Assembly: GCA_018670825.1 (NCBI GenBank) | Contig: JABHIW010000048.1 | Span: 1 to 64,000, forward strand | Reading direction: 5' to 3' | DNA from: Candidatus Scalindua sp. | GTDB lineage: Bacteria > Planctomycetota > Brocadiia > Brocadiales > Scalinduaceae | DNA: 64,000 bases | In this document: positions 26,732 to 53,956 of the stretch, piece by piece | Layout: every line of letters starts with the position of its first letter | Numbering within the stretch: position 1 is the first letter of the stretch | The notes under the pieces: generated by a model | Told to the model about the DNA's origin: nothing | The model's input: the letters and a program-made list of their open reading frames with translations, nothing else | Database searches by the model: none | Translations under genes and position numbers: made by a program

Positions 26732-27751
26732 TTGCTTAAAAGTATATTTTTAAAATCAGGTATTATTGTTTTTTCAATTGTCTTAAGCCTATTCATTTTG
26801 GAAATAAGTATTCGTATTTTTACTAGTCAGCCATATTACGGCTATCCTAAATATATGTATAGAAATGACCAAGAAATTGGGTTTTCACTAACACCTGACT
26901 TTGAAGGAAGGCATATCCAGCCTGATTTTAATATAAAATATAATTTTAACTCATACGGATTTAGAGGTCGAGAAATATACAAAGAAGAATTGGATTCTTC
27001 TATACGCTTACTTCTTTTAGGAGATTCTGTAGCTTTTGGAAATGGAGTTTCATTTGAAAAAAGCTGGGCATACCGTCTTGAAAAGAAACTTAATAATGGA
27101 TTTGATGAGAAACAAAAGTACATTGTAGTTAATACAGGAGTTCCCGGATACGGACAGGATGAGGAAATAAAGCTATTCAAAAAATGGGGTAAGAATTTAA
27201 AGCCCCATATTGTACTAACTACATTTTGCACGAATGATTGGAACGATAATTCTTCACAGTATATAGAGGATGGTTATGTAGTAAATAACAGGGGTTCTGC
27301 ATCTAGAATAAAAGTATTTTTAAATCTTCATTCCAGATTGTATACATTTATTGTTTTAAGGATTAAGTCTACCAGCTGGTGGCATCGAAACAGAGAAGAC
27401 AGAGGAGAAGCAAGAATAAGCCCACCTGTAAACATTGCGAAAAAAAATATTGCTTCTCTTGACAGGGAGGTGAAGGCTTTGGGGATGAAGCATTATCTCG
27501 TCTACTTCCCTGACAAAACATATAATCATACAAATAAGGATGATCATAGAAGGTTTTTAAAACTATGTAAGGAGTTAAATATACCAGTTATAGATTTATA
27601 TCCAGAATTTAATGTAAACCCTGAAGAGAGAAGACGCTTGTATTTTAAAATTGATCCACACTGGAATGACAGAGGAAACGAACACGCTGCTGAAGCTATA
27701 TATAAGAACTTAAAGCCAGTACTAAAGAACATAGCTTCACAAATTGATTAA
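26732..27751 (+). CDS. SGNH/GDSL hydrolase-like membrane-anchored protein
   Basis: 339 residues. An N-terminal hydrophobic segment (about 9-27) anchors it. The four SGNH blocks can be followed: LLLGDSVAFG at 94-103 (nucleophile Ser99), NTGVPGYG near 133-140 (block II Gly), CTNDW near 168-172 (block III Asn) and DPHWND at 308-313 (Asp308 and His310). These are the catalytic residues of acetyl-esterases and of the O-acetylation partner proteins. The start is a TTG at 26732 and the ribosome site is weak. It is likely to act on O-acyl groups of the glycan outside the inner membrane. It is followed by a GT2 gene at 27776. Confidence 0.8.
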   Translation: MLKSIFLKSGIIVFSIVLSLFILEISIRIFTSQPYYGYPKYMYRNDQEIGFSLTPDFEGRHIQPDFNIKYNFNSYGFRGREIYKEELDSSIRLLLLGDSVAFGNGVSFEKSWAYRLEKKLNNGFDEKQKYIVVNTGVPGYGQDEEIKLFKKWGKNLKPHIVLTTFCTNDWNDNSSQYIEDGYVVNNRGSASRIKVFLNLHSRLYTFIVLRIKSTSWWHRNREDRGEARISPPVNIAKKNIASLDREVKALGMKHYLVYFPDKTYNHTNKDDHRRFLKLCKELNIPVIDLYPEFNVNPEERRRLYFKIDPHWNDRGNEHAAEAIYKNLKPVLKNIASQID

Positions 27752-34440: not shown

Positions 34441-35877
34441 ATGTTATTTAATTCAATAGAATTTGCGCTATTCTTGCCGATAGTATTTAGTCTCTATTGG
34501 TATGTTGTAAATAAAAATATAAAACTACAAAACGCTTTACTGTTATTCGCAAGCTATTTCTTTTATGGTTGGTGGGATTGGAAATTCTTGTCTCTAATCG
34601 CATTCAGTTCAATAGTGGATTATGCCGTTGGAATTGGGCTTTCAATAACAGATAACAGAATCCGAAGAAAATTCTTATTACTAACTAGTATATTGACTAA
34701 TCTTGGATTTCTTGGCTTCTTCAAATATTTTAATTTCTTTGCCGAGAACTTTGCAGAAGCTTTTACTTTTCTTGGACAACCAATTTCAGACCCTGCTCTT
34801 TTAAGTATAGTGCTTCCCGTAGGGATTAGTTTTTATACATTTCAAACACTGAGCTATACCATTGATGTGTATAGGAGAAAGTTTGAACCGACTAAAGATA
34901 TAGTTGCATTTTTTGCTTTTGTCAGTTTTTTCCCACAACTGGTTGCAGGTCCTATAGAAAGGGCCAAAAACCTACTACCTCAATTCTACAAGAAAAGGAC
35001 TTTTGAATATGACAGAGTGGTTGATGGAATGCGCCAAATACTATGGGGTTTATTCAAAAAAATTGTAATCGCGGACAATTGTGCAATTTTCGCGAATGAC
35101 ATCTTTGCAAATTACAATAATTATTCAGGAAGTACTTTGCTTTTGGGCGCTTTCTTTTTTGCTTTTCAAATCTACGGTGATTTTTCTGGTTACTCAGATA
35201 TTGCTATCGGGACGGCTCGATTATTCGGATTCCGTTTAATGAGAAATTTTGCATTCCCTTATTTCTCAAGAGATATTGCAGAATTTTGGAGGCGTTGGCA
35301 TATTTCATTGTCAACGTGGTTTAGAGATTATGTGTATATTCCGCTTGGCGGTAGTCATGGCAGGACTTGGACAATAACGTGTAATATTTTTGTCATTTTT
35401 ATTGTAAGTGGATTCTGGCATGGAGCAAATTGGACTTTTATTGCCTGGGGTACTTTGAATGCGATTTATATCCTTCCGTTAATACTGATCAATAAAAATC
35501 GTAAGAACACGGATACCGTTGCAGAAGGTAGGTGGTTACCAAATATTAATGAAATATTACAGATTGGGATCACCTTCTTAATGACATCGATTGCATGGAT
35601 ATTTTTTAGGGCAGAAAATGTTCAGCAAGCACTTTCTTATCTAAACAGGATCTTCTCAGTGTCATTCTTGACTTTGCCGGAAATACATCCAAAAAAAGAA
35701 ATCATTCTATTAATGATATTTGTTTTAATTGAATGGCTGCAAAGGGACAAACAACATGCTCTACAAATAGAACTGAAGCTTCCCAGATATCTACGATGGG
35801 GAATTTACTATACAATAATCATCATCATCTTTCAGTTTTCTGTTACCCAACAGGAGTTTATTTACTTCCAGTTTTAG
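34441..35877 (+). CDS. algI: MBOAT-family membrane O-acyltransferase (AlgI-like)
   Basis: 478 residues with about ten membrane helices. LFNSIEFALFLPIVFSLYW opens as in AlgI. LPVGISFYTFQTLSYTIDVYRRKF near 128-151 and FFPQLVAGPIERAKNLLPQF near 162-181 are hallmark segments. The DFSGYSDIAIGTARLFG stretch, EFWRRWHISLSTWFRDYVYIPLGG and FIVSGFWHGANWTFIAWG (catalytic His near 325) complete the family pattern. It moves an acyl group from a cytoplasmic donor to a glycan or lipid acceptor on the outer side. It works with the SGNH-like protein encoded immediately downstream. Confidence 0.92.
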   Translation: MLFNSIEFALFLPIVFSLYWYVVNKNIKLQNALLLFASYFFYGWWDWKFLSLIAFSSIVDYAVGIGLSITDNRIRRKFLLLTSILTNLGFLGFFKYFNFFAENFAEAFTFLGQPISDPALLSIVLPVGISFYTFQTLSYTIDVYRRKFEPTKDIVAFFAFVSFFPQLVAGPIERAKNLLPQFYKKRTFEYDRVVDGMRQILWGLFKKIVIADNCAIFANDIFANYNNYSGSTLLLGAFFFAFQIYGDFSGYSDIAIGTARLFGFRLMRNFAFPYFSRDIAEFWRRWHISLSTWFRDYVYIPLGGSHGRTWTITCNIFVIFIVSGFWHGANWTFIAWGTLNAIYILPLILINKNRKNTDTVAEGRWLPNINEILQIGITFLMTSIAWIFFRAENVQQALSYLNRIFSVSFLTLPEIHPKKEIILLMIFVLIEWLQRDKQHALQIELKLPRYLRWGIYYTIIIIIFQFSVTQQEFIYFQF

Positions 35878-40988: not shown

Positions 40989-42428
40989 TTAAACCCTTTG
41001 GGGCACCTTCTCAGGTCCATGTAACATATATGGCGCCTTTTCCTGTATATTTGAGGATTCATTCTTTAGTTTTTTCTGCTCATCCTTATCTAAGTGGTTT
41101 AGCACAACAAGAAGCCCCATTAAAAACCAAAAAGGTTCCATAATTCTAACGATAATAAAGGTATTTGAACCTATCGAATGAAGTAAAAGTGATACGAAAC
41201 CGGCAAGAACGCCCATGGACAGGCCTTTTACATAGCTGTCGTTGGTATTTCTATGTGTATCTAATATAAACTTAAAAATTGAGTACATTAGATACATGAA
41301 TATGCTAAAACCCAATATGCCCAGTTCAATCAGTGTTCTGAAATATTGAGCATCTATAAACCAATACCCTGTTATGCCATACCCGAATATGGGGTGATAT
41401 TTCAGGTCTCTGATAACCCCTTGCCAACTCAGTACTCTCAATGTAGCTGATGAGTCTAATGCGATATCAGTTCCCCCCACTTTCGCCTGATAGCCCCTTT
41501 CCGTCTTAAATGTACCACTGAATCTCTCTTTAACGTTCTTTGGTAAAAGAAATGGGCTTACAGCAAGAATGACAACTATTGCGCCTATTAATAGCAACTT
41601 TCTTTTATTCAATACAAGAAAAACAAGGTACATGAAAGGTAGCCCCATCCATGCTGCCCTGGACTCCGTTGCCATAATCACAACTAAGGATAGCGCTATT
41701 AAACCTGCTAAGAGCATCTTTGCCCTTCTGTTTTCACTTGTCAAAAAAAGCCCGATACTGACGGACATCATCATTATCAGATATCCGCCGAAGGTACCTG
41801 GTTCACCGGAAGCACCTTCAAATGGAGCTGTTACCCTCTTTCCTGCAGGTATTTGCATAAAACCAATAAAAGCAGTTATTGCGCATGTTACCAGTAAGAG
41901 TATTACAAAGATCTTAACCTGCTCCCTTGTCGTTACAAAATTGACTGCCATAAAGAAAACGACAAAGTATTCAAAATATTTCAAAACAAAGAAAAGCCCA
42001 ACGACATTGATCTTACCATAAATACCTCCCATAATAGTTGAGAAGAAACAGACTAAAGTATAAGCTATAATCCCTCTGTTTAAAGGTGTTTTTGGAAAAA
42101 GTCCATATTCCTTTTTAATTGCAGACCTGATAAACCAGCTAAGTGATAATACCACGAGAAGCATGTCATCAATTCGAATAGTAAATCCCTTCCCCTGTGT
42201 GTCCCTCTGTCCAAACTCAGGTGATAGCAACATGGAAAAGACCAGCAGATACAAAGCAATGGGAGGCCAGACAAAACTAACGATAAATATCACGAGCCCC
42301 AACGTAACCCCAAGGACAAGTATTGGTACAGTTTTGGTTGTAGCAAAACCAACAACACAACCAATCAGGAGAATCCCTACTAACATGAGAATCAGGCTTA
42401 AGTCAATTTGTCTCGTACCGTTAGCCAT
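40989..42428 (-). CDS. O-antigen ligase/polymerase-type polytopic membrane protein (Wzy_C)
   Basis: 479 residues with 11-12 hydrophobic helices. The Wzy_C/O-antigen-ligase signature covers the long central part: TAPFEGASGEPGTFGGYLIMMM near 199-220, ATESRAAWMGLPFMYLVFL near 250-268 and the large periplasmic loop with LRVLSWQGVIRDLKYHPIFGYGITGY near 328-353. Arg and His residues in these segments are those known to matter in WaaL/Wzy proteins. It would polymerise repeat units or attach a finished glycan to a carrier at the periplasmic face. It lies downstream of the Wza-like fusion and the BY-kinase, so it is probably the polymerase for that export route; no flippase gene is seen. Confidence 0.85.
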   Translation of the reverse strand: MANGTRQIDLSLILMLVGILLIGCVVGFATTKTVPILVLGVTLGLVIFIVSFVWPPIALYLLVFSMLLSPEFGQRDTQGKGFTIRIDDMLLVVLSLSWFIRSAIKKEYGLFPKTPLNRGIIAYTLVCFFSTIMGGIYGKINVVGLFFVLKYFEYFVVFFMAVNFVTTREQVKIFVILLLVTCAITAFIGFMQIPAGKRVTAPFEGASGEPGTFGGYLIMMMSVSIGLFLTSENRRAKMLLAGLIALSLVVIMATESRAAWMGLPFMYLVFLVLNKRKLLLIGAIVVILAVSPFLLPKNVKERFSGTFKTERGYQAKVGGTDIALDSSATLRVLSWQGVIRDLKYHPIFGYGITGYWFIDAQYFRTLIELGILGFSIFMYLMYSIFKFILDTHRNTNDSYVKGLSMGVLAGFVSLLLHSIGSNTFIIVRIMEPFWFLMGLLVVLNHLDKDEQKKLKNESSNIQEKAPYMLHGPEKVPQRV

Positions 42429-42552: not shown

Positions 42553-45297
42553 TTATTTAGCACTCTGACCTTGCCAGGGAGCAGCCGCTGGTGGTAGCTG
42601 TGGTGTTGTTATTATTTGTTCTACAGATGGAGCAGGATCACGTCGGAAAGGGAAGCCAGAATACCGTGGTAGAGCTGTGGAATCGTAAAAATTTGAAGGT
42701 AACTGAGCAATCTGGAGAAAGGGTCCAAATGCTCTTACTAAATTTCGTATTCTTCCCATGATATTTTTTGATACAAAAACAACATCACCGCTATTTAATG
42801 GAATATTTTTCCTGAAATCACCCCGTTGATAAATCTCTGTTAAATCGACTTTTATGGTCTCAGGCCTTTCCACGGATCCTCTTATTACCAGTACCTGCCT
42901 GGCCTTGCCATACACAGTAGGCCCACCGGCACTAATAACGGCTTCCAGCAACGAAATATCCTTGTCAAAGTTGAATAAACCAGGTCTTGCCACTTCACCC
43001 ATTACAAATACTCTATTCTTAATTTCCGCCTTGCTGGGTATAAAAAAAACATCACCATCCTCAACTATTACATCCTGACGGAAATCAGACCTGAAAAGCG
43101 CATCAAATATGTTTAAAAAATATGTTTTTCTGTCCCTTATCAGTCGTACATGTGTTAAGTCTGCAATTTCTAAATGGCCTCCAGCTCTTGCTAAAAATTC
43201 TGAAAATCTTTCTTTGCCGTATAGTGCGTATATACCTGGTCCGGTTGGCTGTCGCGCTAAGGACCTTACTGCTCCAAAGATTGACAGAGTGTAAGCTCTC
43301 TTAAAGTTATCGGGTATTTCTACCTTAATAAATGGGTCCCTAAACACTTTACTTAATTGTGCCGTGAATTCTTCTTCTAATTCCGTTGGTGTAAAGCCCG
43401 TTACATTGAAATTTTTGATGTAAGAAAAGGACACGGTATTTTGAGGCGAGACTAAGACCTCATATTCTTTTTCTTCTAAACCTACCCAGAATGTTATTGA
43501 TAATTTATCTTTTGAGCCAATTCGATACTCCGGAATGCCGTTTACTTCCCGCCACGCCTTATATTCCTTAACAGGAATTAAGTCACCTTTTTCTAGAAAC
43601 GGATAAGCATATCTCCCGGCCTCATCTGATTCAGGATTGGCATCAAACTTTGCTTTATCTTCTTGTCGATTATCCGGTGATTTACCATAATTTAACGCAA
43701 TATCTATCCTTCTACCTTCCTGCCATGCACTATCTTCTCCGGCTTCATTCATAAAATGTGAATCTCTCCTGATATCAATCTCAATTCTTTCTTGAGATAT
43801 ATCTTTGGAAATAAAGTAATCAGTCACCGTTTTAAGTCTCGCTTCTGAAAGAGCTTGATCAACTGAAGATTGTTTTGCCTCGACTCTTCCAGAACCGGAA
43901 TATTTCTTAAAGTTTAAAACAGTTCCTTCAACACTATTAAGAACATTTAATAGATTGTTTAAGGATTTAGTTGATTCTGCACTAAGATCTGACGTTTCCG
44001 TATCAAAAAAAACAGAAGTTTCCAATACCGGTACCGGAAGTTTAATTTCTCCCTCTTCATCAACTAAATCATTTTCAGTCTGTAGCTCTGCCTGATGATC
44101 TATGCCCCTTAGCCATATCTTTACTCCTTCTCCATAAGTCGTGGCTGCAATGTCGAGATTGTTATCAGAATTAAAATCTGCGAACCCGATATCAAAATAA
44201 TAGCCATCCTTAGGCAGCCCTTCATCTCTCGCAATCATCCATTTAAACATGCTTGCCTGATACCATACAATAATTCCATTGTTATCGCTTAATGTAGCGG
44301 CTATATCCAGTAAGCCGTCATTGTTAAGGTCTACGGCCTTTGCCCTCCAGAAATTTCCTTTTTTTGTAAGTACTTTCTTTTTCGAGAAACCTCCCTCACC
44401 GTTGCCATAATGGATTTTAACACCATCAAAATTTGCTGCTGATATAATATCAGGATTGCCATCACCATTAACATCCGCCACATCAACTCCCCAGAAAGAG
44501 CCTATATCAACAATTGATTCTACAGCAGACCACCTGCCATCACCGGAGCCAAGCCATACCCTCAGTGCGCCTCCATCTTCCCCCCACGCCGCACCCACTA
44601 AATCAATCTTTCCATCGTTATCAAAATCACCTACCTCAACATCACTATACATATTCCTGCGTGTTGGACCTGATTCTTGAATGAAAGTGCCTTTACCAGT
44701 TCCCATCCAGACATTAATACCTCCTTTAAATACACTTGTTTTATTGGCTGCTATAACGTCCAGGTTACCATCATTATCTATGTCAGCAAGCCTAAGTCCA
44801 TCGAATAAATCTTTTTCAGAAACAGGTTGCGGGTCTCCAAATCTGCCATTTTCATTAATCCACGCCTGTACACCGTTTGTATCTCCCATGCTTGTTGAAA
44901 TAATATCAAGCCAGCCATCATTATTCAAATCCCCGGCGGCTAACGAACGGATATCCCCCCTTATCTTGAAACGCTGCGCCCTTTCCCAATTACCGGCATC
45001 ATCTCCAAACCAGAGAAATATTGCCCCAGGTTCATAACTTCCACCGACAACATCAACCTTTCCATCGTTATTAAAATCACCTAACGTTAAGGAACGAAAA
45101 TGACCTGACTGTTCGGGGCCAAAGTCCCTGGACCATCTTTGATCAGACCTATACCGGTGAACTCCGGGTCCTTTAAAAGGTGCTTTTTCAGTATCCAAAA
45201 GCTCTCTACGAGTCTCCAAAATATTTCCACAACCAACGAGGATGGCTAAAAAAATTAAGGTACTTATTATTTTGGCTCTCTTTGATGCTATTGACAC
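42553..45297 (-). CDS. Lipoprotein fusion: FG-GAP propeller, OmpA-like domain and Wza-type exporter
   Basis: 914 residues in one unbroken frame. The N-terminus is a lipoprotein signal ending in LVGC (Cys23). Seven Ca-binding loops of the D-x-N-x-D-G type (DFNNDGKVD near 74, DLNNDGWLD near 123, then near 172, 224, 275 and 323, and a weaker seventh DFNSDNNLD near 374) are spaced by about 50 residues, as in a seven-bladed FG-GAP/VCBS propeller. Residues about 428-537 resemble an OmpA C-terminal domain (SVFFDTETSDLSAESTKSL, LSEARLKTVTDYF, EGRRIDIAL). From 585 on it is a Wza-like exporter: Poly_export domain (590-665) and two SLBB domains (about 668-750 and 760-840). It lies between the BY-kinase and the ligase-type gene. 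A fused propeller on an exporter is unusual. Confidence 0.88.
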   Translation of the reverse strand: MSIASKRAKIISTLIFLAILVGCGNILETRRELLDTEKAPFKGPGVHRYRSDQRWSRDFGPEQSGHFRSLTLGDFNNDGKVDVVGGSYEPGAIFLWFGDDAGNWERAQRFKIRGDIRSLAAGDLNNDGWLDIISTSMGDTNGVQAWINENGRFGDPQPVSEKDLFDGLRLADIDNDGNLDVIAANKTSVFKGGINVWMGTGKGTFIQESGPTRRNMYSDVEVGDFDNDGKIDLVGAAWGEDGGALRVWLGSGDGRWSAVESIVDIGSFWGVDVADVNGDGNPDIISAANFDGVKIHYGNGEGGFSKKKVLTKKGNFWRAKAVDLNNDGLLDIAATLSDNNGIIVWYQASMFKWMIARDEGLPKDGYYFDIGFADFNSDNNLDIAATTYGEGVKIWLRGIDHQAELQTENDLVDEEGEIKLPVPVLETSVFFDTETSDLSAESTKSLNNLLNVLNSVEGTVLNFKKYSGSGRVEAKQSSVDQALSEARLKTVTDYFISKDISQERIEIDIRRDSHFMNEAGEDSAWQEGRRIDIALNYGKSPDNRQEDKAKFDANPESDEAGRYAYPFLEKGDLIPVKEYKAWREVNGIPEYRIGSKDKLSITFWVGLEEKEYEVLVSPQNTVSFSYIKNFNVTGFTPTELEEEFTAQLSKVFRDPFIKVEIPDNFKRAYTLSIFGAVRSLARQPTGPGIYALYGKERFSEFLARAGGHLEIADLTHVRLIRDRKTYFLNIFDALFRSDFRQDVIVEDGDVFFIPSKAEIKNRVFVMGEVARPGLFNFDKDISLLEAVISAGGPTVYGKARQVLVIRGSVERPETIKVDLTEIYQRGDFRKNIPLNSGDVVFVSKNIMGRIRNLVRAFGPFLQIAQLPSNFYDSTALPRYSGFPFRRDPAPSVEQIITTPQLPPAAAPWQGQSAK

Positions 45298-45452: not shown

Positions 45453-48002
45453 TTAGTACTTTAAGATACCAAATTGCCACAGTAAGCCATAAAAAATGAA
45501 TGTCGATGTTATGACCAAGATAATAATTTCCAGCCACTTCTTCCATGGTCTTTCCTTTAAGAAACTTGCTCTTTTCTTACTTGCCCGAGGCTTCTTTACC
45601 GATTTTTCCTTAGGTTGCCCCCTTCTTTTACTACCTTTCATCTTTGCCGATAAATTATTTACTACATCCGGCACCTTGAACCATTTCTTAATCGTATTCT
45701 TATATTTTGGTTCATTTATTTCAGATGTTTCTTCCTCCTCCCTCTCCTCTTTCTCTCCTATAATCATTTTTAATAATTTATCAGTTATATTTGGCATTTT
45801 AAACCATTTCTTGTACCATGGTACTATCGTTTCTTCTCCTTCTGAACCGTAACCATAATAATATCCATAATAACCGTAGTCCTTATAGTCCTTACCTGTT
45901 TCAGGTTTCAGACCATTCAAGACTACACCTATTACATTTGCCTTTGAATTTACCAGTTGTGCCTTTGCACGCTTGAGAGCGCCTCTTGCGACTTGGCCTA
46001 CTTGGTATACCATAACCACGCCTTCTGCTTTTGTTGATGTTATCACGGCATCGGTAGTTGGGAGAACAGGTGAACAATCAAGCAATACAATATCATATGA
46101 GCTCTCTACCTGAGAAAGGATTTCACTCAGTCTGGAGGAATTGAGTAATTCAGATGAGTTTGGAGGTATTAAACCCGAAGTTATTATGTTCAGATTATTT
46201 ATTCCCGGTGCTGTTGTCGTTATATCTTCCATTCCCATCTTCCCCATCATTATATCTGTATCAGTTTTTATTACCTCATCCCAGTTATAATTTCCTAAAA
46301 TGACATCAGATAATCCCGGCTCTCTTTCTAATCCGAACATTTTGTTTACCATAGGCTTTCTCAGATCAGCATCTATCAAGAGCACCTTTTTACCAATCTG
46401 TGCAGACGCCATCGCAAAATTACATGATATGGTAGTTTTTCCTTCCCTCATAGAAGAGCTGGTAATTGCTATAATTTTCATCTGCCGTTCTGCTGCAATA
46501 AATTCTACCCCGGTACGCAAGGATCTATAGCTTTCTGCTATAGTAGATTTTGGTGCAAAGTGGGATACCAATCGGGCATTCAGTTCGAGCACTTCTTCTG
46601 AAAGTTCAGCGCTTCTATTTTTCAGCAAGGTATCTTTGATTTGTTCAGTACCCATGAATGGGATTACTCCAACAACCGGAACCCCAAGAAATCCTTCCAC
46701 ATCTTCAATTGTGCCAATAGAAGTATCCATGGTCTCACGTACAAAGGCCATGACCACTCCCAAAATAAACCCAATAAGAGCTCCAATTATTGATGTAGTT
46801 GTAGTCGTAGGTGGATTTATTGGGAATGTTGGTATAATAGCAGGCCTTACGATTGTTATTTCCTGTATCTTTTCAGCTTCCTTAATCAATACCTCCTGGT
46901 ACTTCTGTTCTAAAGAACTAAGAAGTGTTTGATAACCCTTGACATCGTTTTCAATCCTTTCCATGTCAAAACTAATTTCAGGAAGTGAAAGAAATACTTG
47001 CAGCTGCTTGACCCTCTCCGTTTCTGCCGATTTTTGGGTTTCCCGGTGCCTTTCCTTTTCAGCAAGTAAGTGGTCCCCCATGTTTTTCATAATAGCATCT
47101 ATTTCCGTATCTATTCTTTGTACCTCAGGATGATTCTCAGTAAAGTCGATTAGTAATACATTTCTTTCCAATTGCAGTCCGTCTAAACCGGCATTGAGGG
47201 TTGTAAATACAGGGCTTATCTCCTTTGAATAAAAGCCTACCACCTTTTCCTTAGGCAATGATTTCTGAAACTTAAGATGCTCTATTAAATTTTCAATATC
47301 TTCCGCCTTTTCTTTGGAATCACTAAGTTCTTTTTCTGCCGCTTCTAACCTCCGAGAGGTATCTTTGGCATGGGTTTCCATTGAAACAAAGCGTTTTTCC
47401 TGCCTTAGTTTTTTAAGCTCTTGCTGAGACGCCTTTAAAGTCTTAACAATTGTACCTAATCTGCTTTCAATGAAATCCCTTGCCTCGTATGTACGTAAAT
47501 TCTTTTCCTTGGAATTTATCTCCTGAAATGCCTCAGCAACTCCGTTGGCTAATTCCATTGAAAATCTTGGTTCTCTTGAGGTCGCTGATATGTTTATTAT
47601 GTCAGTTTCTCCCTCCACTACGGTATTCAACTTATTTTTCAGATCAATGACGATATTCATCATATCAGGATCATCTCTAACAGCCTTACTTGGAATCTCC
47701 TTATCAATAAGGCCCATATTTTTGGCAGCTAACTCCACGACTGGAAGGCTAGTCGCTATAGCAGATTGCGTCTCTAACGAATCGGCATCGGACCATGATA
47801 TGGTTTCAATGTATAAGCCGGTAACCGTTGTACTTTTTTCTACTCTTATGCTTGATGCTGCTCTATACAATGGAATAGGTTGTTTTGAGAGAGAGAAAAT
47901 TAAACTGAAAAGGCCAATAGTAATAGTAGCAAAAGCGATAATAAGTTTTCGCTTTTGCATTATCCTGGTGTAATCCCTAAGGTTTAAATCATACTGGGCC
48001 AT
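45453..48002 (-). CDS. Wzc-type polysaccharide co-polymerase and BY-kinase with extended C-terminus
   Basis: 849 residues. Wzz region: helix 1 at about 20-37, a periplasmic coiled-coil part (about 170-380), PTFPINPP at 391-398 and helix 2 at 404-422. Tyrosine-kinase region: Walker A SSMREGKTT at 516-524, Walker A' VLLIDADLR at 540-548, Walker B IVLLDCSP at 638-645. A tyrosine cluster with eight Tyr lies at 706-718. Normal BY-kinases end there; this one goes on for 130 residues with repeats of the form KKWFK-MPN and KKWFK-VPD (731 and 772) and a basic linker (790-820), and ends with a third hydrophobic helix (about 825-845). GGAG sits ten bases before the ATG. It should control chain length and export with the Wza fusion encoded downstream. 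Confidence 0.9.
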   Translation of the reverse strand: MAQYDLNLRDYTRIMQKRKLIIAFATITIGLFSLIFSLSKQPIPLYRAASSIRVEKSTTVTGLYIETISWSDADSLETQSAIATSLPVVELAAKNMGLIDKEIPSKAVRDDPDMMNIVIDLKNKLNTVVEGETDIINISATSREPRFSMELANGVAEAFQEINSKEKNLRTYEARDFIESRLGTIVKTLKASQQELKKLRQEKRFVSMETHAKDTSRRLEAAEKELSDSKEKAEDIENLIEHLKFQKSLPKEKVVGFYSKEISPVFTTLNAGLDGLQLERNVLLIDFTENHPEVQRIDTEIDAIMKNMGDHLLAEKERHRETQKSAETERVKQLQVFLSLPEISFDMERIENDVKGYQTLLSSLEQKYQEVLIKEAEKIQEITIVRPAIIPTFPINPPTTTTTSIIGALIGFILGVVMAFVRETMDTSIGTIEDVEGFLGVPVVGVIPFMGTEQIKDTLLKNRSAELSEEVLELNARLVSHFAPKSTIAESYRSLRTGVEFIAAERQMKIIAITSSSMREGKTTISCNFAMASAQIGKKVLLIDADLRKPMVNKMFGLEREPGLSDVILGNYNWDEVIKTDTDIMMGKMGMEDITTTAPGINNLNIITSGLIPPNSSELLNSSRLSEILSQVESSYDIVLLDCSPVLPTTDAVITSTKAEGVVMVYQVGQVARGALKRAKAQLVNSKANVIGVVLNGLKPETGKDYKDYGYYGYYYGYGSEGEETIVPWYKKWFKMPNITDKLLKMIIGEKEEREEEETSEINEPKYKNTIKKWFKVPDVVNNLSAKMKGSKRRGQPKEKSVKKPRASKKRASFLKERPWKKWLEIIILVITSTFIFYGLLWQFGILKY

Positions 48003-48229: not shown

Positions 48230-50209
48230 TCAATAACCAAATAATATTCCTTTGGGATTGTTTTTATTTTTTAATGCGACACCAGGGGATGAACCTTTCA
48301 CAGAAAAAGAGAATGCAAGGCCGTATAAAGCGTTTGAAGAGCATGGGTTAATCCGAAGTGTATTCTTATACCCAATTATAGCGTCATGAAACATCTCTTC
48401 ATACATATTGCCTAATCTGTAAGGAAATTCTGTATTATATTTCTCGAACGGCTTCGCTTGTTCAGGTGAACTGGCATCACTAATTTTTTCATTATCCGTA
48501 TCATCCAAAAGATAAAATCGTTTGACTGAAAAGTTCTGATTGTCTTCCGGTGCATTTTCTCTTCTTGCTATTGCATCGTCAAGATACATGGCTTTACGGT
48601 AATAAGCATGGGCCAGATTTAGAATGGCATTATTGTCATATGGGTTTTTAATTGTATCGTCTTCATATCTCTTTATCGCATCATTAACTTCTATTTTTGT
48701 CTTGTAGTTTTTGGTTATATTGTACGTATAAACCCTGTAGTCTGAGTTGGTTTTATTTTTAGCAACGGCTTTTTCTTCAGAAGAGTTTACCTGAATGACA
48801 ACACCTACATTTGCTTGATCGTTTGACAGGCTTGCACCCGTTTCTTGCTTGACTTCGGTTTGTTTGTATGCGACATGCCCTTGAATTTGTTTTTCATCTC
48901 GACCTTCTTTATGCGGCACTTTCTTCATTAGTACTTTTTCAGGTTTTAAGCTATTTGTTCCTTGTGAAAGAAGGAATGGGTATTGGCTATCTACATGTTT
49001 TTGACTATCTTCTCTATTTTTTGTATTACTTTTTTTCGCCAGTATCATTTCCTCAGCAACATCAATTTTATGAGGAATTTTTTTCTTGAGAGACTCTTTC
49101 ACCTGTTCTCCCTTATGCAGGTTTTTTCTTCTTACATCGTTGTTAGTGCTGCCAGAAACATTCTTACCGGAATAAGACTCGCTACTATGGATACCTTTAT
49201 CTGGAATAACCTTTTTGTCTTCACTGATAATATTAAGAGTACTTTTATCCAGCATCGCATAGTTTTGATTAATTTTCATAGTCTTGTTAAACTCTATTAT
49301 TGCTTTATCGAGTTTTCTATTTTCGGCATAAACTATGCCAAGATTATAATGTGCTTTTTCGAGGACATCTTTAAGTTGTGGGAAATTAGGGTTTATGCCC
49401 GATACCTTGTTAAACTCAATGATAGCATTATCATATTCCTGATTTTCCAGGTGGAATGTGCCTAAACTAAAATATATTTCGCTTAGAGATTTCTTTGCAA
49501 TTGTATTTCCTGGTTTAAGCGCTAAACCCTTTTCGAATGCCAACTGTGCTTTTTTAAATTTTGCTTCTTTTTTATATGCATTTCCCAGATTTATGTAAGC
49601 CTCAAATAGGTCTTTTTGTTCTTTCGTGTTTTCAGCTACTGGTAACGCATTAAAAACCATCTTTGCAACAGCTTCATTAAGATCAATACCCATTGCCTTC
49701 TTAAATTCACATTTGGCATCATCTGTCATGCCTTTTATTCCATAGGCGGTGCCCAATTGTATATGTGATTCCAGATGATTTGGATTCTCTTCTATTGAAC
49801 ACTGAAATTCATAGATTGCCTGGTCGATCAAGTTTCTTTCCGTATAAGCAATTCCAAGAGCAAAATGGGCCAAGCCAACTTGATTCAATTTTATTTGCTC
49901 TTGCTCCACGCCAGGCAGGCTATCAATACGTTCTTTTTCGATTGCATTATTTTCCGTTTGTTTAATTATTGTATTAGTAGATGGTGAAGATCCCTCTTTT
50001 ATGGAAATGTTTGAAGACAGTGCCTGGCTTGCCACGTTTTCTTCATCAGGCTGTAGTAGGCCTTCTTCGTAGTTACCATCTTGGTTTATAGTGTTAATAA
50101 ATTGTTGATCTGTTATATCCTTTTTCTTCACAAAACCCTGGTTTGTACAGGATATTGCTCCAGCCGATATCAAAAAAAGTGGTATTAGTAAGTTTGTAAG
50201 TTTTGACAT
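48230..50209 (-). CDS. TPR-repeat lipoprotein
   Basis: 659 residues from the ATG at 50209, which has GGGG nine bases upstream; a TTG at 50224 would add five. An N-terminal signal ends near ISC, so it is probably a lipoprotein. At least six TPR units occupy about residues 105-320: HFALGIAYTERNLIDQAIYEFQCSIEENPN, then AYGIKGMTDDAKCEFKKAMGID, AYKKEAKFKKAQLAFEKGLALKPG, FHLENQEYDNAIIEFNKVSGINPN and VYAENRKLDKAIIEFNKTMKIN, with the typical pattern. A long polar low-complexity linker (about 325-485) leads to a final TPR-like part (about 515-620). TPR lipoproteins are common helpers of polysaccharide polymerisation or secretion complexes, including in PEP-CTERM loci. Confidence 0.85.
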   Translation of the reverse strand: MSKLTNLLIPLFLISAGAISCTNQGFVKKKDITDQQFINTINQDGNYEEGLLQPDEENVASQALSSNISIKEGSSPSTNTIIKQTENNAIEKERIDSLPGVEQEQIKLNQVGLAHFALGIAYTERNLIDQAIYEFQCSIEENPNHLESHIQLGTAYGIKGMTDDAKCEFKKAMGIDLNEAVAKMVFNALPVAENTKEQKDLFEAYINLGNAYKKEAKFKKAQLAFEKGLALKPGNTIAKKSLSEIYFSLGTFHLENQEYDNAIIEFNKVSGINPNFPQLKDVLEKAHYNLGIVYAENRKLDKAIIEFNKTMKINQNYAMLDKSTLNIISEDKKVIPDKGIHSSESYSGKNVSGSTNNDVRRKNLHKGEQVKESLKKKIPHKIDVAEEMILAKKSNTKNREDSQKHVDSQYPFLLSQGTNSLKPEKVLMKKVPHKEGRDEKQIQGHVAYKQTEVKQETGASLSNDQANVGVVIQVNSSEEKAVAKNKTNSDYRVYTYNITKNYKTKIEVNDAIKRYEDDTIKNPYDNNAILNLAHAYYRKAMYLDDAIARRENAPEDNQNFSVKRFYLLDDTDNEKISDASSPEQAKPFEKYNTEFPYRLGNMYEEMFHDAIIGYKNTLRINPCSSNALYGLAFSFSVKGSSPGVALKNKNNPKGILFGY

Positions 50210-50896
50210 AATATATAACCCCAATTCTGTTTGTAACTATTTCGAAATGTATCAATCTTCTGGAAGGATATTGAAAATATCATAATAAACACTTCCAAAA
50301 TAAAGAGCTCTAAATAGTCAAAAAATATTTCTGAAACTGAAACAACTAAATACTAATAACAAAACAATCTGATGGCAGCTTTAAAAAAAATCTTTATGTA
50401 TTATTGCCACCATTATCAGACGTTATGTTTAGCAGAACTTGCCATGGCATGACTACTTCTTCAGAACAAACAATTTGGGATTAATCTGATGATGGCAAGT
50501 CGTGTACCTTTATGAAGCGAAAGGCACTTTAGCAGTGTGTGATTCGTTAGAATTTTATTATGTGGAAGGTGGTTTATACGGTAAAACCAGATTGTGAAAA
50601 GTTTATGGTACTCTACCAAAATGAAAATTACTATAAACTTTTAGTGGGTAATGCCTTACGAATATGCTAGAGGATAAAGTAACTTTTCGGCAATGTCAAC
50701 AAAAAAATCTGGAACATTTCTCTATTTAACGTTATTGGAAGCCGTATTCCCCGATAGTAAAACAACAAAATACGGAAGTATTATACCTGACGGCAAAAGT
50801 GCGGCCTCTTCAGTATGTTAGCCTATCTTCATTTCAGTCCATTAAAACATATGGAGCTTGCATTGCAGGTTTAGAGTCAATCCATAGCCGGTACAT
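50210..50896. other. 687-bp non-coding gap with repeated TGATGGCA-type motifs
   Basis: No gene seen. CTGATGGCA occurs at 50369-50377, a related CTGATGATGGCAA at 50486-50498, and reverse forms at 50404-50419 and 50437-50445 (ACTTGCCAT, an exact reverse complement of 50492-50500). The cluster could be a regulator site for the TPR gene, which is read leftward from 50209. A minus-strand promoter candidate (TTGACA at 50694-50699, TATCCT at 50671-50676, 17-bp spacer) lies at 50671-50699. The end near 50855 is similar to the DNA after the upstream HD-GYP copy. Confidence 0.4.
50671..50699 (-). promoter_or_regulatory. Candidate promoter reading toward the TPR gene
   Basis: On the minus strand TTGACA (50699-50694), 17 bp and TATCCT (50676-50671). 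The -35 is perfect and the -10 matches four of six. It is about 460 bp before the TPR start. Confidence 0.25.
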
Positions 50897-53070
50897 TTAT
50901 TGAGGCAAATCAGACTCGTACACAGTACCGGTAACGTATAAGAGTGGCGTTTCCGTCAATCTTATTATCTTTTTCTTCTTCGGTCTACGATTTTGTGAAT
51001 TAAAAAGAATTTCTACTGTTGGGCGTAAAGGTGCATCTTCATAAATTTCTATCACCTTACATATTGCCTTCGAATTTAATTTAAGATAACTACCCAATGG
51101 AAAGCATGATAGTTTTGTAAGTAATAATCGTTTAATATTATTGGAAAAAAGTTTTTTTTGAGTACCTAATATTAACTTTACCGCATCATGAGGCATATAA
51201 CCCCTTCTTTGAGGCCTATTATGAGTTAAAGCTTCATATACATCAACAATACCTATAATTTTGGCGTAACCATGTATTTCATCTCCTTTAAGTCCGTTTG
51301 GATATCCCTGACCGTTCTCTCTCTCCTGTTCCTGAGAAGCCACTTTGGCAATCCACAAATATTTTTCCCCAAGGGTTTGGAGTATTTTATAAGTATAAGA
51401 CGGGTGCTCTCTAAGTTGTTGCAATTCAGAAGCCGACAGTTTCCCTTTTTTATTTACAATTCCATTTGGTACAAAAACCATACCGATATCATGCAGGAGG
51501 GCCGTTATCCCTAATTCAATCAGCTTCACCTGTGAATAATCAACCCCTTTTCCCAAGATTAAAGAATAAATACATACATTAGCAGAGTGTGCTGCAAGAT
51601 TGTCCGGTATACCCTTGCCCTGTACCGCCTTTCCGTAAAGAATATTGGTTGCATTCTCTGTATGTACTATTTCCTTTATAACTTCCAATCCTCTCTCTAT
51701 GGAAAATCTTTTTTTTCTTTTTATACTCTTAATGATCCCCTCTACAAAATCGTAAAGACTTGCATACAAATCTTCTATTCGTTTTTGTTCTTCCAATCCT
51801 TCCTTAGAAAGAACAGTTAGTTCTTCCTCGCTTGGTAATGAAATATTTTCCATGGTTAAATGATAAAAAACAAGGAACTTGTTATATCTGAAGGTAAAAG
51901 CACGGCATCTGCGACATGTTAGTCTCCCTTTACTTTAACCCATGCTTGCATTGTAGGTGTAGAGCCTATCTATCATATTTATTGAGGCAAATCAGACTCA
52001 TAGACAGTACCGGTAACGTATAAAAGCGGCGCATCCGTCAATCTTATTATCTTTTTTTTCTGTAGTCTACGATTCTGCGAATCAAAAAGAATCTCTACTG
52101 TTGGGCGTAAAGGCGCATCTTCATAAATTTCTATCACCTTACATATTGCCTTCGAATTCAATGTAATATAACTACCCAACGGAAAGCATGATAGTTTTGT
52201 AAGTAATAATCTTTTAACCTCATTGGAAAAAAGGTCTTTTTGGGTGCCTAATATCAACTTTACCGCATCATGAGGCATATAACCCCTTCTTTGAGGTCTA
52301 TTATGGGTTAAGGCTTCATATACATCAGCAATACCTATAATTTTGGCGTAATCATGTATTTCATCTCCTTTAAGCCCATTTGGATATCCTTGGCCGTTCT
52401 CTCTTTCCTGTTCCTGAGAAGCCGTTTTGGCAATCCACAAATATTTTTCCCCAAGGGTTTGGAGTATTTTAAAGGTATAATATGGGTGCTTTCTAAGTTG
52501 TTGCAATTCAGAAGTCGTCAGTTTCCCTTTTTTACTTACGATTTCATTTGGTATAAAAACCATACCAATATCATGCAGGAGGGCCGTTATCCCTAATTCA
52601 ATAAGCTTTTCCTGTGAATAATCAACCCCTTTTCCCAAGATTAAAGAATAAATGCAAACGTTAGCAGAATGTGCTGAAAGATTATCTGGTATACCCTTGC
52701 CCTGTACCGCCTTTCCATAAAGGATATTGGTTGCATTCTCTGTATGTACTATGTCCTTAACAATTTCCAATCCTTTCTCTATGGTAAATCTTTTTTTTCT
52801 TTTTAAACTGCTAATGACTCCTTCTATAAAGTCGTAAATAGTTGCATACAAACCTTCTATTCGTTTTTGTTCTTCCAATCCCTCTTTAGAAGGAGCGGTT
52901 AGTTCATCCTCGCTTGGTAAAGAAATATTTTCCAGTGTTATTTTATCAGGCAGTTTGTCTTCCCTGGCCTCGGTAGGCAGGTTCATCTCGCTTATCTCTT
53001 CTGAACTAGACCCTCCTTCTTGCTTTGTTTTTACCGCATCTTTATCCTCTTTGAGGCGTTCCAGATTTCT
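50855..53070. repeat. Tandem duplication of the HD-GYP region, period about 1082 bp
   Basis: The stop regions of the two copies (50897 and 51979) are 1082 bp apart. Similarity covers the coding part and also the 3' non-coding flank: 50855-50896 and 51938-51978 share GCATTG-AGG and the stretch leading into the stop. This shows a duplication that took in the intergenic DNA. The copy next to the ATPase keeps the N-terminal extension and is likely the older form. The right limit given here is approximate. Confidence 0.75.
50897..51853 (-). CDS. HD-GYP-like domain protein, downstream copy of a tandem duplication
   Basis: 318 residues. An HD-GYP core covers about 60-310: HSANV near 89-93, the HD pair LLHDIG at 119-124 (His121 and Asp122), HPSYTYKIL near 150-158, GYPNGLKGDEI at 183-193 and VDVYEALTHNRPQRRGY. 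However the HHE ligands before GYP are replaced by Glu175-Gln176-Glu177, and the Asp at 180 is Asn. Typical HD-GYP phosphodiesterases of c-di-GMP need these. So it may bind rather than cleave the nucleotide. It lacks the 69-residue N-terminal extension of its neighbour; its ATG lies where the neighbour's residue 70 is. A c-di-GMP role fits control of matrix production, but this is inferred. Confidence 0.8.
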   Translation of the reverse strand: MENISLPSEEELTVLSKEGLEEQKRIEDLYASLYDFVEGIIKSIKRKKRFSIERGLEVIKEIVHTENATNILYGKAVQGKGIPDNLAAHSANVCIYSLILGKGVDYSQVKLIELGITALLHDIGMVFVPNGIVNKKGKLSASELQQLREHPSYTYKILQTLGEKYLWIAKVASQEQERENGQGYPNGLKGDEIHGYAKIIGIVDVYEALTHNRPQRRGYMPHDAVKLILGTQKKLFSNNIKRLLLTKLSCFPLGSYLKLNSKAICKVIEIYEDAPLRPTVEILFNSQNRRPKKKKIIRLTETPLLYVTGTVYESDLPQ

Positions 53071-53142
53071 GATTTTTACTTCTTCATCCTGCTTTTTCTC
53101 TGGAATTTTACCCTGTTTGATTAAATCTGATAGTCTTGCCAT
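51979..53142 (-). CDS. HD-GYP-like domain protein, upstream copy with N-terminal extension
   Basis: 387 residues, clearly a paralog of the protein at 50897: the two run in parallel from ENISLPSE (residue 71 here, residue 2 there) to the identical ending YVTGTVYESDLPQ. The extension (1-69) is polar, charged and probably unstructured, starting MARLSDLIKQGKIPEKK. HDIG (His190-Asp191) is kept, and HHE is again replaced by EQE (244-246) with Asn at 249, so the altered metal site existed before the duplication. The gene ends 125 bp upstream of the other copy's start and starts 13 bp after the ExeA-like ATPase, so they likely share a transcript. Confidence 0.82.
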   Translation of the reverse strand: MARLSDLIKQGKIPEKKQDEEVKIRNLERLKEDKDAVKTKQEGGSSSEEISEMNLPTEAREDKLPDKITLENISLPSEDELTAPSKEGLEEQKRIEGLYATIYDFIEGVISSLKRKKRFTIEKGLEIVKDIVHTENATNILYGKAVQGKGIPDNLSAHSANVCIYSLILGKGVDYSQEKLIELGITALLHDIGMVFIPNEIVSKKGKLTTSELQQLRKHPYYTFKILQTLGEKYLWIAKTASQEQERENGQGYPNGLKGDEIHDYAKIIGIADVYEALTHNRPQRRGYMPHDAVKLILGTQKDLFSNEVKRLLLTKLSCFPLGSYITLNSKAICKVIEIYEDAPLRPTVEILFDSQNRRLQKKKIIRLTDAPLLYVTGTVYESDLPQ

Positions 53143-53155
53143 AAGTTACAGTCTA

Positions 53156-53956
53156 TTATTTTCCTGTATCATCTATTAATTTCTGAATTATTTTGGTATT
53201 GATTAGCTCCGCTTCAGTACTGAAGCCATCAAGAAGGGCCAGATCACAGATATTATTAATCTCTCTCGGTACACCCTTTGTGTATGAATGAATTTTCTCA
53301 ATAGCCTCTTTAGTAATTATATTCTTTTTTAAACCGGCCACCTTCAATCGAAAAATTATATATTTTATTGTATCGTTAAGATCAAGATGTTTTAGATGAT
53401 ATCTTATAGAAATCCTTGAATTTAGTTGCTTTATGCTTGTTACCCTTTCCCTAAGTTCGGGTTGCCCTATAAGTATTAATGTCACTAGGAATTTTTCATT
53501 TAGTTGGAAATTTAACAGTAGCCTCAGCTCCTCGAGCGTTGTTTCACTCTCTATGGCCTGAGCTTCGTCAATTACCACTATGGTCTTTTTGCCTTTATTT
53601 AGATTGTCCAGCATCTTCTCATTAAGCATGTGAAGCATTTCTGTTTTGTCTTCAACTGATTTTTCAACACCTAATTGATAAAGTATTTCTTTAAGTAGGT
53701 CAATAGGGGAGAGGCATGGATTAGCAATAAGTCCTATTTCATATTCATCACTCGAAAGTTCCTGAATAAAAACCCGACTCAGGGTAGTCTTTCCGCAACC
53801 GATCTCACCAGTTAACATTGCCGCTCCTTTCTGAGACTTTGTCGCGTATATGAGCCTCATCAATGCTTCTTCATGCTGTGATGAACGATATAAGAAGCGA
53901 GGATCAGGAACATTTTCAAAAGGAAGGGTATCGAGTCCCCAATATTTTTCGTACAA
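53156..53956 (-). CDS. ExeA-like AAA ATPase of the PEP-CTERM locus type
   Basis: 266 residues. MYEKYWGLDTLPFENVPDPRFLY at 1-23 is the conserved opening of ExeA-like and PEP-CTERM-locus ATPases. Walker A GEIGCGKTT is at 50-58 and Walker B VVIDEAQ at 127-133. The sensor-type region LILIGQPELRERV near 157-169 and a winged-helix-like end (TKEAIEKIHSYTKGVPREINNICDLALLDG) follow. This type is found in most exosortase/PEP-CTERM polysaccharide loci, where it is thought to power or regulate assembly. No DNA-binding or peptidoglycan-binding domain is attached, unlike ExeA of type II secretion. It is the first gene of the minus-strand block and is divergent from argC. Confidence 0.87.
   Translation of the reverse strand: MYEKYWGLDTLPFENVPDPRFLYRSSQHEEALMRLIYATKSQKGAAMLTGEIGCGKTTLSRVFIQELSSDEYEIGLIANPCLSPIDLLKEILYQLGVEKSVEDKTEMLHMLNEKMLDNLNKGKKTIVVIDEAQAIESETTLEELRLLLNFQLNEKFLVTLILIGQPELRERVTSIKQLNSRISIRYHLKHLDLNDTIKYIIFRLKVAGLKKNIITKEAIEKIHSYTKGVPREINNICDLALLDGFSTEAELINTKIIQKLIDDTGK

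Follow-up and report, generated by a model that had tools for sequence, protein, structure and literature searches.

What kind of protein arises when a Wza-type polysaccharide exporter is joined to a propeller and an OmpA-like domain, and what would the propeller do in such a molecule? The question is raised by an ORF in Candidatus Scalindua sp. (contig JABHIW010000048.1, positions 1 to 64,000; this whole stretch of 64,000 nucleotides is referred to as the window). The ORF is intact, starts with GTG and encodes 914 residues. A sequence-only reading of the window had placed a propeller, an OmpA-like domain, Poly_export and two SLBB domains on this one lipoprotein chain, a layout on which the ORF, profile searches and the AF2 model agree:

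42553..45297, minus strand: propeller–OmpA–Wza fusion (lipoprotein OPX exporter), 914 aa (ORF, Pfam, AF2)
45229..45297, minus strand: lipoprotein signal peptide, aa 1–23, with lipobox LVGC (C23) and a Gly after the Cys (sequence)
44104..45135, minus strand: seven-bladed VCBS/FG-GAP propeller, aa 55–398 (Pfam, blade alignment, AF2), with Ca loops at D74, D123, D172, D224, D275, D323 and D374 and an aromatic ring of F67, (I116), F165, Y217, F268, F316 and Y367
43678..44028, minus strand: degenerate OmpA-like domain, aa 424–540 (Asp column occupied by G468, Arg487 kept)
43315..43533, minus strand: Poly_export (Wza D1), aa 589–661 (Pfam)
43030..43296, minus strand: first SLBB domain, aa 668–756, weak by sequence and clear by its fold match to Wza
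42772..43014, minus strand: second SLBB domain, aa 762–842 (Pfam)
42556..42762, minus strand: C-terminal helix and disordered tail, aa 846–914 (profile scan, AF2)

The propeller is highly significant in profile searches, with Pfam matches to FG-GAP_3 (E=8e-48) and FG-GAP (1e-19), and the exporter part is matched by SLBB_2 (6e-19), Poly_export (5e-14) and SLBB (6e-11). When the exporter part is scanned alone, both SLBB copies appear, including the weak first one, and both Pfam and Foldseek give the order of Poly_export followed by SLBB domains that defines the OPX/Wza family. The seven Ca-loop sites named in the earlier reading are exact to the residue and their Asp is invariant in seven Scalindua-type orthologues; Pfam, the blade alignment, AF2 and Foldseek all indicate that the seven DxDxDG blades close a propeller. 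In the lipobox, G22 and C23 are invariant across the aligned orthologues. A weak Pfam match to PliI overlaps blade 7 and was dismissed as spurious.

The AF2 model built from 69 sequences has a mean pLDDT of 81, with values near 95 for the propeller, near 93 for most of the exporter and near 80 for much of the OmpA-like part, and a pTM of 0.51 that leaves the arrangement of the domains open; it replaced an earlier run with seven sequences (mean pLDDT 45). Helical segments are predicted at residues 850–873. Our structural comparison by Foldseek reveals that the model resembles E. coli Wza (2j58, E=5e-17) as well as VCBS/integrin-type propellers. The protein is also Wza-like in being a lipoprotein with Poly_export and two SLBB domains, encoded beside Wzc- and Wzy-type genes. 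It differs from Wza in about 530 additional N-terminal residues, which hold the propeller and the OmpA-like domain, and in giving no match to PF18412 (Wza_C) even at E<=10. Since this match is missing, the fusion would fall by sequence in Class 3 of the published OPX scheme (PMC9603273).

An assembly join or a frameshift linking separate genes can be excluded, because the same architecture recurs in six other genomes of the genus (63–86% identity; the copy in G004 is truncated at the edge of its contig) and in another phylum. A full-length match is also present in a further record titled Candidatus Scalindua (L035), with 77% identity in the best segment. The complete propeller–OmpA–exporter fusion is also present in two genomes, G417 (L036, record titled Syntrophus) and G590 (L152), with 51–53% identity to the window protein. 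We infer that these two genomes belong to another phylum, given that 297 genomes sampled from their phylum showed no overlap with the planctomycete genomes. The check for the architecture in other genomes is thus answered in the positive, within the genus and beyond it. Two related records deserve mention: in G014 (L011), from another genus of the same family, the fusion gene is disrupted by a stop codon as well as a contig break, and a contig of a MAG labelled Maribacter (L034) encodes a Scalindua-type fusion with 78% identity and is probably a mis-binned member of the Scalindua group.

Simpler versions of the protein also exist. In most relatives examined in both phyla, the exporter is plain and about 400 aa long. 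In the distant planctomycete family f17, of the same phylum, propeller and exporter are fused without an OmpA domain. By comparison, in another distant planctomycete, G074 (L117/L154), a plain exporter gene adjoins a separate gene for an FG-GAP protein that has its own N-terminal lipoprotein-like stretch; the neighbouring gene looks Wzc-like by eye. These separate adjacent genes form a Rosetta-stone link between the two functions. In the exporter tree, all fused exporters group together with weak support (78/93), and a single origin of the fusion is therefore favoured rather than shown. The propeller tree, in which branches are long and forks remain open, unites the exporter-linked propellers, that of the separate G074 gene among them, in a clade with 100/100 support against 20 generic propellers.

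The genes around the fusion, all on the minus strand, encode a Wzx/Wzy-type polysaccharide operon with Wzc:

40989..42428, minus strand: Wzy/O-antigen-ligase-type membrane protein (profiles)
45453..48002, minus strand: Wzc-type chain-length determinant/tyrosine kinase (profiles, Wzc tree)
48230..50224, minus strand: TPR lipoprotein, confined to the Scalindua form of the operon (profiles, gene order)
50897..53142, minus strand: two HD-GYP-type (HD_5) proteins, operon neighbours in both phyla too (profiles)
53156..53956, minus strand: XrtA/PEP-CTERM-type AAA ATPase, first gene of the conserved operon (TIGR03015, 240 bits, below the family cut-off)

This set resembles the exosortase (XrtA)-type EPS operon of ATPase, exporter, Wzc-type kinase and Wzy, and plain-exporter relatives commonly have the order ATPase–HD-GYP–Wza–Wzc–Wzy. 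The Scalindua operon differs from that type in the position of the exporter gene, between wzc and wzy, and in a TPR lipoprotein gene ahead of wzc. The TPR lipoprotein, which varies in length (641–957 aa) and gave essentially TPR-type matches alone in the profile scan, occupies the slot held by wza in plain relatives. The two HD_5 genes lie side by side here, with a single one in most relatives examined. Among the window ORFs scanned, no beta-barrel partner was seen adjoining the fusion gene. Elsewhere in the window, genes for an AlgX-like SGNH hydrolase (26732–27751) and an MBOAT acyltransferase (34441–35877) lie amid glycosyltransferase genes, and their presence suggests an O-acetylated polymer.

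Tree comparison reveals that the exporter gene and its operon do not share one history, as expected for acquisition of a single gene. The Scalindua exporters branch with those of the two other-phylum genomes at 100/99. Constraining them to a group with plain exporters from the same order, a group chosen once the tree was known, lowers the log-likelihood by 129 units (p-AU 3e-82). The Wzc tree differs: here Scalindua is placed with the plain operon of G016, a member of its own family, at 99/100, far from the Wzc proteins of the fused operons. The Scalindua Wzy, HD-GYP and ATPase proteins are likewise 58–70% identical to those of G016, versus 34–43% to those of the other-phylum fused operons. 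Furthermore, the exporter gene precedes wzc in G016 and in the other phylum but lies between wzc and wzy in Scalindua, and the operon comparison showed no plain exporter before wzc in Scalindua operons. Because the exporter groups with the other phylum and the adjacent Wzc with the ordinary operon found in its family, the most economical interpretation is that Scalindua gained a fused exporter gene and lost its original plain one. The lineage of G417 and G590 is the probable donor, since its exporter gene has stayed in the usual place and its OmpA domain is intact.

The OmpA-like domain of the window protein is real but degenerate. Its sequence and fold class are those of the OmpA/Pal peptidoglycan-binding domain, with support from NCBIfam YiaD (1e-9) and from Pal (PDB 4g4v, 7e-6), but its score against PF00691 stays below the Pfam cut-off (22.1 versus 27.2 bits). 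By comparison, both other-phylum orthologues, L036 and L152, clearly exceed the cut-off, with full OmpA matches (E-values of 4.6e-12 and 1.9e-12 among the pair). Of the residue pair that contacts diaminopimelate in OmpA/Pal, Arg487 is kept and the Asp column is occupied by G468; the Asp is kept in two of seven genus members and lost in the other five. The L036 domain retains both, the Asp in GYADP and the Arg in LSQKRA. The domain is also among the less conserved parts of the fusion, with a mean pairwise identity of 62%. The earlier identification of an OmpA-like domain therefore stands on the YiaD, Pal and orthologue matches, with the window protein itself below threshold, and the proposal that it holds the exporter to the cell wall is plausible for the other-phylum orthologues and doubtful here. 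An anchor of this kind would be possible in principle because anammox bacteria do have peptidoglycan (PMC4432595).

The location of the propeller can be approached through Wza. In that protein the acylated Cys sits at the inner leaflet and the chain as far as D4 lies in the periplasm (PMC9601211), and the helical arms of Wzc contact D1 (PMC12881504). As the propeller and the OmpA-like domain lie between the Cys and D1, both would be expected in the periplasm, near the entrance of the exporter; the suggestion that the propeller acts at the exit finds no support in this topology.

A more specific indication comes from the propeller face. Seven residues before the Ca-loop Asp, an aromatic residue is present in six of the seven blades of the window protein, I116 being the exception. 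Among 69 generic FG-GAP propellers, collected by similarity to the window query so that bias, if any, runs against the difference, an aromatic occupies this position in 6 of 321 blades (2%), never more than once per protein, and Pro is usual. The remaining exporter-linked propellers share the aromatic pattern wherever blades were detected, more weakly in the separate G074 gene product. The propeller is at the same time among the best-conserved parts of the fusion, with a mean pairwise identity of 77%. Searches with the propeller alignment were biased, several top matches being the alignment's own rows, and were not used as evidence of exclusivity. In the AF2 model, the aromatics lie where strand A begins or close by, on the other side of the propeller from the Ca loops. 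This corresponds to the DA' loop, as judged from strand order in the model and not from a bound sugar, and in PVL and tachylectin-2 the sugar pocket is formed by the GW motif of the DA' loop (PMC8023676). The aromatic ring at the place of a lectin pocket is the main argument for glycan binding, without amounting to a demonstration, and it makes the earlier suggestion that the propeller could bind glycan a supported possibility.

We therefore regard it as somewhat probable that the protein is an OPX/Wza-type lipoprotein with an inserted propeller and OmpA-like domain, whose periplasmic propellers putatively bind or guide polymer; the propeller is most likely a periplasmic glycan-binding collar on a Wza-type translocon. 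In the proposed mechanism, a VCBS-type seven-bladed propeller and an OmpA-like domain would have been inserted between the acylated N-terminal Cys and Poly_export, so that propellers surround the Wza ring within the periplasm. Close to the D1 entrance, the polymer or its precursor would be bound or guided by the aromatic ring, which faces away from the Ca loops. In the ancestral form, the OmpA-like domain may have served as a tether to peptidoglycan, and it would be decaying in this species.

An aromatic ring can also serve protein–protein contacts, and the propeller might instead be a periplasmic docking scaffold for Wzc, the TPR lipoprotein or a neighbouring protomer, with no glycan bound. 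Proteins are the ligands of many VCBS/integrin-like propellers; among the best fold matches are LGI1, KICSTOR and integrins, alongside lectins (PVL type, PLL2); and a TPR lipoprotein gene lies within the Scalindua operon. Docking is nevertheless rather unlikely: the separate histories of the fused exporter and its Wzc speak against a dock specific to Wzc, neither the other phylum nor f17 has the TPR gene in its operons, and the aromatics occupy a lectin-pocket position. A surface-exposed propeller that holds or receives exported polymer at the exit would agree with the existence of surface lipoproteins in some lineages, but it is improbable given the Wza topology, in which the segment between Cys and D1 is periplasmic. 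More improbable still, the extra domains could be passive spacers or wall anchors that set the Wza–Wzc distance in a wide periplasm around a propeller without ligand, as the OmpA-like domain and its Pfam match in the other phylum would allow, but the OmpA Asp is lost in most genus members, that domain is less conserved while the propeller face is kept, and f17 has the fusion without OmpA.

The fusion combines known parts in a form that we did not find described: the open-licence papers searched contain no propeller–OPX/Wza or FG-GAP–OPX fusion. Published OPX surveys classify exporters by what comes after Poly_export; the three-class survey scored Poly_export, SLBB, Wza_C and GfcC profiles (PMC9603273), and N-terminal additions would therefore have gone unscored. 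With VCBS/FG-GAP propellers, PVL lectin and integrin alpha, the fusion shares the fold and seven blades with DxDxDG Ca loops, but it differs from generic members in its aromatics, where these mostly have Pro, and in forming its own clade. Three points appear to be new: the replacement of an exporter gene by transfer, separate from the history of its Wzc; the aromatics at the PVL/tachylectin-2 pocket position of an FG-GAP propeller; and the loss of the peptidoglycan-binding Asp in this species. Nature also supplies four clean proteins for testing, namely the fusion with OmpA, the fusion without it, the separate-gene version and the plain version.

Tentatively, and short of even confidence, we propose that these proteins form a new OPX subclass: a portable exporter that comes with a calcium-dependent lectin ring (in an octamer, up to 56 blades), which would grip or read the polymer before the outer-membrane pore and could be exchanged between phyla as a single gene while its Wzc partner stays behind. 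Should the propeller bind glycan, substrate recognition would sit on the outer-membrane exporter itself, which would help to explain how a lone exporter gene can be transferred into a foreign operon.
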